The notes beneath the pieces are model-generated. The model was given only the letters and a program-made list of their open reading frames with translations, was not told the origin of the DNA and searched no databases. Below, piece by piece: positions 12,641 to 26,398 of a stretch of DNA of 64,000 nucleotides. Origin of the DNA: Eublepharis macularius. Lineage: Eukaryota > Chordata > Lepidosauria > Squamata > Eublepharidae. Position 1 is the first letter of the stretch. The number at the start of each line of letters is the position of its first letter. Where the stretch lies: assembly GCF_028583425.1 (NCBI RefSeq), contig NC_072793.1, forward strand, positions 101,107,689 to 101,171,688. The letters run 5' to 3'. Position numbers and translations under genes: made by a program.

Positions 12641-13760
12641 AGGATAAATCAACCAAGCAACAAACTCTGCCTCCGGCTGTTCCTAGAATGCGGTTGGCTC
12701 ATTCAAAGTTGCAGACCATCAGGGGCTAAGAGCAAAAGGCTAACAATGAAATCCTAAGCAGAGTTGCTCCAGTCTAAGCCCATAGCTTAGGATTTCACTA
12801 TAAGAGCGGTTTCTGTTTCCTAACTCGGATGGAAGCCAGAGAGCTGGTCCAGATAATTAGTGTCATCCCAGAATTGCTTGTATATGCAGAAGACAAGTCA
12901 CAAGAATGAGCCTGAAGTTTTGCATGTTGCTTTTGCTTGCAAAGTTCTCATCACCCAGGAGATGGACACAAGACTCTCCTGCAGTGGGAACTGTTCCGGC
13001 AGAACTGGCAAGTGAAGCTGTGGCAATTTGCTGGACGTACTCGCTCACACTCAGGTGCACATATGGCTTCTGTCAGCTACATAGTTTACTTTGCTCTCTT
13101 CTGAGGTAATAGCTCCTGCAGAGTTCCAAGAGAAAGCGACACCTGTGGAATAACAGCAGCAATTAAAGTATTTTGGTTATGTAAATGCTTCCTGCAAACC
13201 TTGAGGGATGTGACATATCCCTGCATTGATTATCAGCCCTACTTTAGAGAGTCTACTCTGACATTTTACAGAACCAATTTCACTAGGCCATAGCTATTTT
13301 TTAGACCAAGCACTCACACAGAAGCCACTAAGCTCTGAGACAGGGTACCATGTGCCTAAACCTTCCACAGCAGAAGAATATCGAATCCTTTCCCCTCCCC
13401 GCCTGTGGAAGTATAATCATGTCCACAGGCTATGGGAACTGACATCCCAATATAGAAATGGAGGTACAGTGTTCGGCTAGACCTCTTGCAGATCTGGCCT
13501 GCTCAGGTGCTTTCTGCATTGCTTTTCCTCACCTGGAGGAAAGTTGGGCTGCCAGATAGATAGTTTGGGCAATGCTCCTGTAGAGAAAGGAAATTTGGCA
13601 GGCTCAGTAAGTCATGCAGCAATAGGAACAGCTGCACCTGCCAAAATCCTCTCTTCTGCCCACTTGTTAAAGATCCTGGGACATTGTCATCTTCTGTAGC
13701 TGGTCTCTTGAGAGGGAAGAGATCTTTCCCCCTAATGCCTCTTTTGGGCTAGGTTTAAAT
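12641..13760. other. Intergenic, nothing recognised
   Basis: Short open frames only, and no repeat that I can name with confidence. Confidence 0.4.
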
Positions 13761-13848
13761 TACAAGGAAAATGTATTGTCGAAGGCTTTCACGGCCGGAG
13801 AATGATGGTTGTTGTGGGTTTTCCGGGCTGTATTGCCGTGGTCTTGGC

Positions 13849-13895
13849 ATTGTAGTTCCTGACGTTTCGCCAGCAGCTGTGGCTGGCATCTTCAG
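13849..13895 (-). ncRNA. Hammerhead ribozyme-like motif, minus strand
   Basis: Exact mirror of the plus-strand motif in the left arm of the palindrome. In one continuous transcript the two arms would anneal to each other, which would compete with ribozyme folding. Confidence 0.55.
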
Positions 13896-13935
13896 AGGTG
13901 TAGCACCAAAAGCTACACCTTTTGGTGCTACACCT

Positions 13936-13982
13936 CTGAAGATGCCAGCCACAGCTGCTGGCGAAACGTCAGGAACTACAAT
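13936..13982 (+). ncRNA. Hammerhead ribozyme-like motif, plus strand
   Basis: The conserved nucleotides CUGANGA (CTGAAGA) and GAAA flank a 6-bp stem II with a 7-nt loop, followed by a GUC triplet as the expected cleavage site. Stem III could be only the self-complementary ACGU, so activity would be expected mainly in a dimer, as proposed for Penelope-like elements. Catalysis is inferred, not shown. Confidence 0.6.
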
Positions 13983-14037
13983 GCCAAGACCACGGCAATA
14001 CAGCCCGGAAAACCCACAACAACCATACAAGGAAAAT

Positions 14038-15261
14038 ATTTGAAAGTTTTGGGTACCAGGTAACTTTCACTGACACAGAATAAAAAGCTGAGTTCACTGC
14101 AGCATGAAAAGTGCATCCTCCCAGCTGGAAAATTTCCCATTTAATGGTAGGACAGAAGGATTTCAGTTCAACTGAGGTCCATATGGGTTAGGATGTGTAT
14201 GTTACATGAAAATGGGAGTGACAGATTTTTTCCCACAGGGTGGGACTGACTTGTGGCTTTTTTCCATTTTCACAATTTTAAAGACAGATTTGTGTACTAA
14301 TAAATCAGTCCTTGAAGTATTGTTAATCCTGCCCCTCCCAGCCATGCTTCAGGTGAGCTAGCTGCCAGTTTTTAAAAATCAAGCATTAAATATATGTTTA
14401 TTAATGTAAACATTAATTGGTTTTTTTAAAAGAGCATAATCAATTTTTAACGTTGCAAAACTACTACAGGGAATTGGGATGTATAGGGGAGATATGGGTT
14501 TGTGATGTCACAGATGCCAGCCACTCAGCATTATTACACTCAGCATGCTGCAGACTCATGGAACTCTTTTCCCCCCTACACCTGCTTTCAGTCCTGGAGA
14601 GAAGATGGTTAATAATGTACAGTCAGTATGCTTCCAGACTGACCTAACACTGAAATAATATTGGGTGCATATACAACTTCAGTCACTACTAAGTCCTATC
14701 AAACCACTTTCATTGGGCTGTATTAATATGCATGCATAGCTTTAACTGAGCCCTCAAGAGCACTTAATTCCCCCCAGAGACTTGTAGGGGGGCCTCATTT
14801 TAGGCTTGTGCTTGGCATTGTATGTGTAGTGTGTGCTAAAGCCTTGAGGCACATCAATATTTCTATTTTACCACTAAATAATAAGGATGTTAGAACACCC
14901 ACCAGTTTGGCTCATGCTTGGGAACAAGGAGACAATTTTTTGCACATCCTCACATGGCCCAAATGAATTCTATTGCCCGCCCCCATCCTTAATGCATAAC
15001 TACTCCATTCAGCAGGAAATTGTTTAAATAGACCATTAAATCAGTTACAAATCATATAAATCAATCATAAATAAATGTTGCATCTTAATAAAATCCTACC
15101 ATTTGGTGTCTGTGTAATTAGTCCATAGTGGCAGTAAGAACTGCTGAACAGAGTGAATCAGCAGCATTTGTTTGGCAAGTGTATCTGGCTGTTTGGACTG
15201 AACTAAACAGGGTGGGTAATTGGCTCACCTCTGATCAACACCATCAATCACAGTAAGTGTC
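14038..15261. other. Intergenic, nothing recognised
   Basis: No convincing coding or repeat signal; only short open frames. Confidence 0.4.
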
Positions 15262-18502: not shown

Positions 18503-18690
18503 AGGGCTGTGGCTCAGTGGTAGAGCATCTGCTTGCATGCAGAAGATGCCAGGTTTTATCCTTAGCATTTCCAGTTAAAAGGCTGACTACTGATTTGGCT
18601 CCTCATTTAGGGCAGCTCTGTATTGTTTCTTTTCCAAGCTCCATCGAACCTGGGCCTGAAAGAGTCTGCATGCGGAAAACTGTCTGATTG
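18503..18690 (+). repeat. tRNA-derived SINE, sense
   Basis: The box-A-like GGCTCAGTGGTAGAGCATC and box-B-like CAGGTTTTATCC are spaced as in a tRNA. A diverged body follows. It is a SINE head, not a functional tRNA gene, because the acceptor stem is absent. Confidence 0.6.
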
Positions 18691-24336: not shown

Positions 24337-24728
24337 TGTATTCTAGAACTGTATAGACAACCAAGGGTAGTTTCAGCTACATCTTTTACTGCTGTAGAGG
24401 CAAGCTGATTTTCATTTTAAATTTAAATTGAAAACGAGCTGCCTTTTCAGTGTGTGGTGGAAATGTCAAAGAAAACTCTGGTTCTTCACTACTTAATTCT
24501 CTTATTTTCATTTGGTCAGGGACTACCACCATTTAATATGGCTCTGAAATCTTCTCCATGTGCACAGTAAGCAACATAGGAGCCACTTTCATGTCTGGCC
24601 ATTCCCTGCTCCATTTGAACTGTGTAACCAATGGAACCAATGTGAGTGGGATCAGCTGCACAAGTTGTTCAACAGGGTTGTGTTTTTCACAAAAGTGGTC
24701 CTGCAGCATCATGCAGGAGTGGGTCTCA

Positions 24729-26398
24729 CGCTGGAGGCCATTGTTAACCTATCCTTAGGCTCTGGAGTTTCTCCTGGGCCATTAAAGGAAGCTGTGGTGA
24801 GGCCTCTTTTAAAGAAACCATCGCTGGACCCCACCGACCTGGTCAATTACCGCCCAGTTTCAAACCTCCCATTTCTGGGAAAGGTGATTGAGCAGGCGGT
24901 GGTGGAACAGCTGCAGGGCTTCCTGAAGGATGTCTCAGCCCTAGACCCCTTCCAGTCCGGGTTCCACCCAGGACATGGGACGGAGACGTTGCTGGTTGCC
25001 CTCACAGACGATCTTCGTAGACATCTGGATCAAGGTGGCTTGACGCTGCTGATATTATTGGATCTGTTGGCAGTGTTCGATACAGGTGATTATGATCTTC
25101 TGACTCACTGCCTCGCCGATGTGGAGATACGAGGGACTGCCTTGCAGTGGCTTGTCTCTTTTCTTCTTGGTCGGGGACAGAGGATGGTGCTTGGGGAGAA
25201 ATTGTCATCCTGCCACTCTTTGGTGTGCAGGGTCCCACAGGGAGCAATACTCTCCCCATTATTGTTTAACATCTATATGCGTCCCCTTGCCCAGTTGGTG
25301 TGAAGTTTCAGACTTGGGTGTCATCAATATGCAGATGACACCCAGTTGTATCTGATGATGGATGGCCGGCCTGACTCAGCCCCAGATGTCCCGGAACATG
25401 CTTTTGCAGCCATGACTGGTTGGTTGAGGCAGAGTCGGCTGAAACTGAACCCAAAGAAGATGGAGGTCCTGTACTTGAGCCACGGGGGATTAGGTTCGGG
25501 ACTCCGGCTCCCAGCCCTCGATGGGGCTCCATTAGTGCCAGTTCCAAGGGTTAAGAGCCTAGGGGTGATCTTGGATGCCTCCCTAAAAATGGAGGCACAG
25601 GTCACAGCAGTTGTCAGGTCCTCTTTTTTCCATTTGCGGCAGACCAGGCAACTTGTCCCTTACCTGTCAACCCATGACTTAACTACAGTGATCCAAGCAA
25701 CGGTCATCTCTAGGCTAGATTACTGTAACTTGCTCTACGTGGGGCTGCCTTTGAGCCTGACCCAGAGATTACAGCTGGTACAAAATGCAGTGGCATGTGT
25801 TATTATGAGAGTGCCAATTAAGGCGCATATAACACCATTCTTATGTGAGCTGCATTGGTTGCCAGTGGAGTACCGGATCAGATTCAAGGTTCTGGTATTG
25901 ACCTATAAGGCCCTGTGTGGACTGGGTCCAGTGTATCTACGGGACCGTCTCTCCCCATATATTCCCCGGAGGACACTCCAACCAGGGTACAAACAGCTGT
26001 TGGTGGTCCCTGGCCCCAAGGAGGCCCACCTAGCCTTGACTAGAGCCAGGGCCTTTTCGGTCCTGGCTCCCACCTGGTGGAACGCTCTGTCTGCTGAAAT
26101 CAGGGCCCGGCAGGACCTACTATCTTTTTGCCGGGCCTGCAAGACAGAGTTGTTCCGCCAGGCACGTGGCTGAGGCTGGGCCTCCGATGGCCTGGAAAAA
26201 GGGGTGTATAAAATTCTAACCCTCCCTGTGAAGGCTGTCCACCATCCTGTTTTAAATGTGTATTAATAGAAATACATTTCTGTTTTAATGATGCCTTAAT
26301 GTAGATGAATTTTTATTGTATTTTAATATGTTGTTATCTGCCCGAGCCTGCCCACGGGGAGGGCGGAATAGAAATTTGGAATAAATAAAATAAAATAA
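24729..26398 (+). mobile_element. L2-clade LINE, copy B, 5'-truncated with nearly whole reverse transcriptase
   Basis: One plus-strand frame runs from about 24729 to the stop at 26171-26173, interrupted only by a TGA at 25301-25303 (probably from CGA). Visible blocks: [69 protein letters not shown], the catalytic QYADDTQLYL (near 25324-25353), LDYCNLLYVGLP, LQLVQNAVA and HWLPVEYRIRFKVLVLTYKAL. The 3' UTR ends GGCGGAATAGAAATTTGGAA with an AATAAAATAAAATAATA tail. The endonuclease is missing through 5' truncation. Confidence 0.88.

Follow-up and report, generated by a model that had tools for sequence, protein, structure and literature searches.

A palindromic Penelope-like insertion in Eublepharis macularius and its probable origin by priming at both ends of a staggered break

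Results

We analysed a 64,000-nt stretch of Eublepharis macularius DNA, hereafter the window (RefSeq assembly GCF_028583425.1, contig NC_072793.1, positions 101,107,689 to 101,171,688 of the forward strand), and found that a palindrome within it is one copy of a very common insertion of a Penelope-like retrotransposon (Penelope-like element, PLE). The insertion is 254 nt long and consists of a 32-nt unpaired stretch, a 108-nt arm, a 6-nt centre and the reverse complement of the arm. Alignment of the arms (13805-13912 and 13919-14026, 108 nt each, 100% complementary, 6 nt apart) and of the flanking direct repeat TACAAGGAAAAT (13761-13772 and 14026-14037, the right copy overlapping the right arm by 1 base) confirmed the design that an earlier annotation made from the letters alone, the sequence-only reading, had described: identical inverted arms, a 6-nt loop and a direct repeat on both sides. 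The target duplication is nominally 12 bp and may be nearer 10, because the terminal AT of its left copy and the terminal T of its right copy could be copies of element RNA. As RNA, the palindrome folds to -237.6 kcal/mol (shuffle mean -80.1, z -33.6) and therefore does not owe its structure to chance; as is usual for a long hairpin, it also gives matches to several microRNA precursor models, all under the gathering score.

The insertion is asymmetric, a feature that the sequence-only reading overlooked. Between the left target copy and the palindrome lie 32 nt (13773-13804, RNA sense on the minus strand) without a counterpart on the right, and this extension corresponds to the known Penelope "tail" (PMC11167929, PMC3846280). 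It would mark the start of a tailed complementary DNA (cDNA) at an outer reverse transcription (RT) start site. The left arm (RNA sense on the minus strand) would continue that cDNA as a copy of the presumed 5' end of the Penelope RNA, namely a 23-nt leader and the first codons of the open reading frame (ORF). From the alignment of the inverted arms and the comparison of copies, the right arm (RNA sense on the plus strand) would be an untailed cDNA begun at an inner RT start site, and the centre (13913-13918, CTACAC), which varies among copies, a filler between the two cDNA heads. The putative first 85 nt of the Penelope ORF occupy 13942-14026 on the plus strand. Their ATG at 13942 lies within a hammerhead core, as in the PAc element of Anolis (anatomy compared with PMC11167929), and the same frame continues in another genomic copy, L146, where Penelope-like coding sequence follows the unit.

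A type I hammerhead ribozyme core is defined by CUGANGA, GAA and the UC of the cut site. Read from the sequence, these conserved letters are present in both arms of the window copy, in the order CTGAAGA, GCCAGC/GCTGGC, GAAA, CGTC: they run from CTGAAGA to GAAACGTC at 13936-13970 on the plus strand, with the cut expected after 13970, and in mirror image at 13861-13895 on the minus strand. Rfam hammerhead families matched nowhere in the whole window at the gathering score, in 13700-14100 at E<=5 or in a single arm (13921-14030) at E<=10. Thus, of the two opposed hammerhead cores that had been proposed, the core letters stand in each arm, and the covariance search of the arms did not bear them out. 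According to PMC7761336, helix III is missing from PLE hammerheads, which may account for the absent match.

Searches of the 2.24-Gb genome placed the window copy in a large family. Exact matches numbered 792 for one foldback-centre pattern, 28,249 for the 35-nt hammerhead core and 34,694 for a 20-nt pattern at the unit end, each with a control of 0. Two samples were compared. Group A comprises the window copy and 39 copies picked by similarity to it, centre included (40 scored of 1,492 candidates), all similar to the window insertion over most or all of its length. Group B comprises the 49 loci behind the first 50 listed centre-pattern places, all on contig C1, chosen regardless of tail and requiring exact 10-nt arm ends. 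Together they hold 83 distinct left flanks (39 in A, 44 in B), of which L078 and L079 are probably a single duplicated insertion counted twice. In contig C1 between 4.8 and 8.5 Mb, a foldback with 166-bp unit spacing recurs 8 times, with some similar neighbours, and looks like a duplicated block.

Target duplications were general in this sample. They passed a score of ~8 in 74 of the 83 insertions, compared with 4 of 1645 shuffled flank pairs. They vary in length, and the flanks are rich in A and T by base count, although the element itself may have supplied the last AT before the tail. Among the nine insertions that missed the score, the flanks of L047, L080, L084, L085 and L094 show duplications displaced by extra tail-adjacent bases, which in L084 resemble the post-tail sequence of L146. 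Paralogous empty sites were present among the fetched loci for 6 of the 83 insertions (L015, L047, L068, L079, L099 and L106); here the overlap of the projected flanks is 7 bp for L068 and 12 to 14 bp for the others. An assembly artefact was rejected, because the same design is repeated beside 83 different left flanks and a scored duplication accompanies it at 74 of these. Foldbacks L047, L068 and L114 sit inside other PLE copies, so PLE sequence is itself a target. L114 had been a candidate for an autonomous copy continuing from the unit and was rejected: it is a foldback with the duplication TATTGCAAATT inside another PLE.

Longer copies linked the foldbacks to PLEs. The 2.46-kb insertion L145 (C1:4626400-4629300) has a target duplication, about TTACTGGGTAA, and two arms head to head, the tailed arm 994 bp and the untailed arm 1465 bp long, with reverse transcriptase encoded in the longer one. 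In L152 both arms measure ~0.9 kb, and the untailed arm exceeds the tailed one by 10 nt; in L153 the tailed arm is ~2 kb and the untailed arm ~1.1 to 1.2 kb long. The reverse transcriptase domain RVT_1 scored above cut-off in L145 (35.1 bits) and L153 (47.4 bits). In L146 the reading frame extends beyond the unit: a single stop falls at the tail end, and ~90 open codons follow up to the end of the fetched piece. The ATG of this frame sits inside the hammerhead core; counted in the frame, the arms end at 85 nt (inner) and 117 nt (outer). The endonuclease region of the family is similar by tblastn to an ORF at L109, a locus at which PF01541 (GIY-YIG) scores above cut-off (39.7 bits). Reverse transcriptase in longer copies, a one-sided 32-nt tail, within the 30-40 bp borne by some PLE copies, on units of the pseudo-long terminal repeat (pLTR) type, and variable-length duplications at AT-rich sites are all features of PLEs, and they support the earlier proposal of a target-duplicating insertion of Penelope-like origin made from inverted pLTR-derived units. 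L108, found via GIY-YIG, belongs to another PLE family and has no significant match to the unit. This other family forms a 2.28-kb head-to-head inverted pair at L108 (1721-4004 and 4905-7188), with arms 99.4% identical.

Every sampled foldback combined one tailed and one untailed arm. This held for 40 of 40 insertions in group A and, among the pattern-sampled foldbacks of group B, for 48 of 49 by script and 49 of 49 once L120 was read, since the tail of this scripted exception is present beside a rearranged arm. If each end chose freely, at most half of the pairs would be mixed, and mixture in all 44 group B insertions would have a chance near 10^-13. The untailed end lies at nearly the same point across sampled copies. 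Genome-wide, 17,060 of the 34,694 unit ends (49.2%) run on into the tail, a figure that includes units internal to tandem copies. Among the 100 unit ends listed first, on contig C1, we counted 27 head-to-head pairs within 4 kb, several of which share a spacing and are probably duplicated loci (15 distinct spacings); tailed and untailed ends were combined in 27 of 27. The same 100 ends gave 0 direct pairs and 1 tail-to-tail neighbour. A limited literature search found no account of such a one-tail rule.

We next compared the arms of 81 insertions, L083 and L120 being left out for their incomplete arms. Divergence was 1.8% within copies and 2.7% between copies, and 23 insertions had identical arms. 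At the most variable position, arm site 10, we counted 63 T/T, 18 G/G and 0 mixed insertions, whereas independent draws would give 28 mixed. The non-CpG sites 4, 13, 29 and 77 were mixed 1, 0, 1 and 1 times, against 6.7 to 10.3 expected. At three CpG sites, 6 to 8 insertions were mixed (9.4 expected), a pattern that mutation after insertion would produce. Arm site 0, mixed 20 times (17 expected), is the target boundary and was not counted as a variant. This agreement of pre-insertion variants between arms suggests that both arms of an insertion come from the same RNA source. The earlier explanation of zero arm divergence by a recent event or by homogenisation can accordingly be divided: a recent origin is probable, and homogenisation is not needed, because copying of both arms from the same RNA would itself give the non-CpG variants that they share in the 81 insertions.

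The centres behaved differently from the arms. There were 45 kinds among 81 insertions, a count that leaves out two with very long or very short centres; five insertions without clean anchors were left out of the centre analysis. They include blunt joins (AAAAG|CTTTT), one-base overlaps, the 10-nt palindrome AGAGATCTCT and fillers that look copied from an arm, such as the CTACAC of the window copy. Sampled centres cluster at two places, CUUUUGGUGC and, farther upstream, near the AGAGATCTCT palindrome, which is itself the centre in 8 of the 40 group B insertions with clean anchors. Four of the repeated kinds occur on both arm haplotypes, that is, with both variants of site 10. The centre of L102 (230-640) contains a 40-bp leader repeat in two additional copies, a pattern that suggests an array of promoter-like monomers upstream of where the RNA starts.

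Discussion

Duplication of the target, together with extension of both 3' ends by copies of one RNA sequence, points to a staggered cut with both overhangs priming RT. The one-tail rule points the same way when it is combined with the agreement between arms and the unequal arm lengths of longer copies. We thus consider it probable that both 3' ends of a staggered break prime RT of the same Penelope RNA from start sites 32 nt apart, and that the two cDNAs are joined at their heads. In this scheme the PLE enzyme would make a staggered double-strand cut, and both 3' overhangs would prime reverse transcription of PLE RNA. The tail would arise at the end that starts at the outer site, ~117 nt into the ORF; the end that starts 32 nt upstream, at the inner site, would remain tailless. 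Both cDNAs would run to or near the RNA 5' end, with a leader of ~23 nt before the ATG, and one RNA or sister RNAs could serve both ends; the simplest arrangement would be a dimeric ribonucleoprotein (RNP) on one RNA. The 3' heads of the cDNAs would then be joined, presumably by end-joining enzymes, via microhomology or a short copied filler to give a near-perfect palindrome, and filling of the overhangs would produce the target duplication. Short foldbacks like the window copy would arise when both cDNAs reach the RNA 5' end. The hammerhead would simply be part of the Penelope RNA, uncut on the templates used.

Two-ended priming may be set beside LINE-1 twin priming, in which two priming events likewise yield an inverted insert and the second primer invades the middle of the RNA. 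Here, by contrast, both ends use fixed start sites and meet at the 5' side of the RNA.

Biochemical work on PLEs fits this scheme. In vitro, both DNA strands are cut and extended by a PLE protein of Anolis carolinensis, which starts RT at two neighbouring sites whose interval is the tail (PMC11167929). The Anolis element PAc (Poseidon) shares with our family an ORF start within the hammerhead core, two RT start sites flanking the tail and AT-rich targets; its start region lies 111-118 nt into the ORF, compared with ends 85 and 117 nt in here. The same study describes tandem copies and leaves second-strand synthesis open, whereas the insertions sampled here are inverted head-to-head pairs with one tail each. 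The inverted-pLTR Penelope copies of the rotifer Adineta vaga (PMC3846280) likewise have inverted pLTRs, a 31-bp tail on one of them, palindromes at the junction and 8-10 bp target duplications, and are mostly head to head. That text calls the tail 'optional' and reports some families with direct pLTRs only and some copies without a duplication; in our sample tail and no tail occur in every pair. A transposon curation guide (PMC8969392) treats inverted pLTRs and short 3' extensions, in its available portion, as peculiarities of individual copies, and that portion gives no rule linking the two.

Matching arms and shared variants would also follow from self-priming, in which one cDNA, or an antisense RNA as suggested for rotifer PLEs, folds back at a palindrome at its end and serves as its own template for the second arm. 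PMC3846280 favours this model, reasoning from the prevalence of head-to-head copies among rotifer PLEs that an antisense template primes itself. The AGAGATCTCT palindrome at the centre of 8 of 40 insertions suits it, and L153, with its longer tailed arm, fits either model. Yet two-ended priming on a sense RNA directly yields head-to-head copies, and self-copying is contradicted by the arm lengths of L145 and L152. In both, the untailed arm exceeds the tailed one, so that its extra length cannot come from the tailed arm, nor the tail from the untailed arm. Self-copying should moreover continue through the tail into the target, and yet the untailed end is nearly constant. We therefore regard self-priming as unlikely. 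Still less probable, in our judgement, is the sequence-only reading's proposal that the palindrome is a non-autonomous element transcribed and retroposed as a unit. The size of the family and the occurrence of one 6-nt centre at three places are in its favour. A retroposed unit should keep its centre, however, and the centre varies among near-identical copies while pre-insertion variants agree between arms, which makes unit retroposition improbable. Four of the repeated centre kinds lie on both haplotypes, longer copies that join unequal arms obey the same rule, and an RNA hairpin of -237 kcal/mol would probably template poorly.

The proposed likeness to retrozymes, circular RNAs freed by two hammerheads and then inserted, draws on the core letters in each arm and did not hold up; we consider it very improbable. 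A retrozyme unit is bounded by hammerhead cuts and arranged in direct repeats, but here the arms are inverted and span the cut site, and the insert ends where two Penelope RT start sites are expected. Foldbacks centred near the hammerhead cut do exist (197 matches, control 1). Among 49 readable of the 50 listed, 2 have a plain join at the cut and 15 a CCTGACGTCAGG join just beyond it, which may be either blunt or made through the self-complementary ACGT. The combination of inverted repeats and target duplications might also suggest a foldback DNA transposon or miniature inverted-repeat transposable element moved by a transposase. Such elements have symmetric terminal inverted repeats and a fixed duplication length, and the asymmetric tail, the variable centre, the variable duplications and the presence of the same units at the ends of copies encoding reverse transcriptase leave this origin a negligible probability.

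Several observations weigh against two-ended priming. Only three long copies (L145, L152 and L153) were read end to end. The endonuclease of the window family matched T5orf172 below the Pfam cut-off (17.3 of 20 bits, in L152). For 46 of the 100 unit ends listed first, no head-to-head partner lay within 4 kb by exact match. Four of these places (L148-L151) were partly read. L148, L149 and L151 proved to be the untailed ends of longer copies whose far ends lie beyond the stretch read, as does the 5' end of the L146/L147 copy; the fourth place holds a foldback with a changed partner. Some centres recur: AAAAGACTTTT is found in 15 of 81 insertions, and the window copy, L009 and L010 share one centre. 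A permutation test of centre against haplotype, which has little power, gave 4 mixed classes with 5.6 expected (P 0.18). Limited unit copying is compatible with these repeats.

PLEs are the third class of eukaryotic retrotransposon, and how their insertion is completed was left open in PMC11167929, where the later steps were not validated. The many young copies in this genome record the insertion reaction. Whether PLEs in general integrate by obligate two-ended target-primed RT is, in our estimate, evenly balanced; a dimeric RNP would use one RNA with RT sites 32 nt apart, leave exactly one tail per insertion and obtain the second strand by joining cDNA heads, often at short palindromes, and not by classical second-strand priming. 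If true, this one scheme would account for three features of PLEs: their inverted pLTRs, their 'optional' tail and the palindromes at their pLTR ends.

Other features of the window

Three further features lie outside the palindrome, all on the plus strand. An uninterrupted 432-aa ORF at 32896-34194 matches the rhodopsin-type seven-transmembrane receptor family (PF00001, E 2.3e-41) and is perhaps a single-exon receptor gene. A 247-aa ORF at 24560-25303 with a reverse transcriptase match (PF00078, E 3.8e-18) is a retroelement fragment. A tRNA model match at 18503-18573, barely above the gathering score (30 vs 29 bits), is possibly a tRNA-derived repeat.
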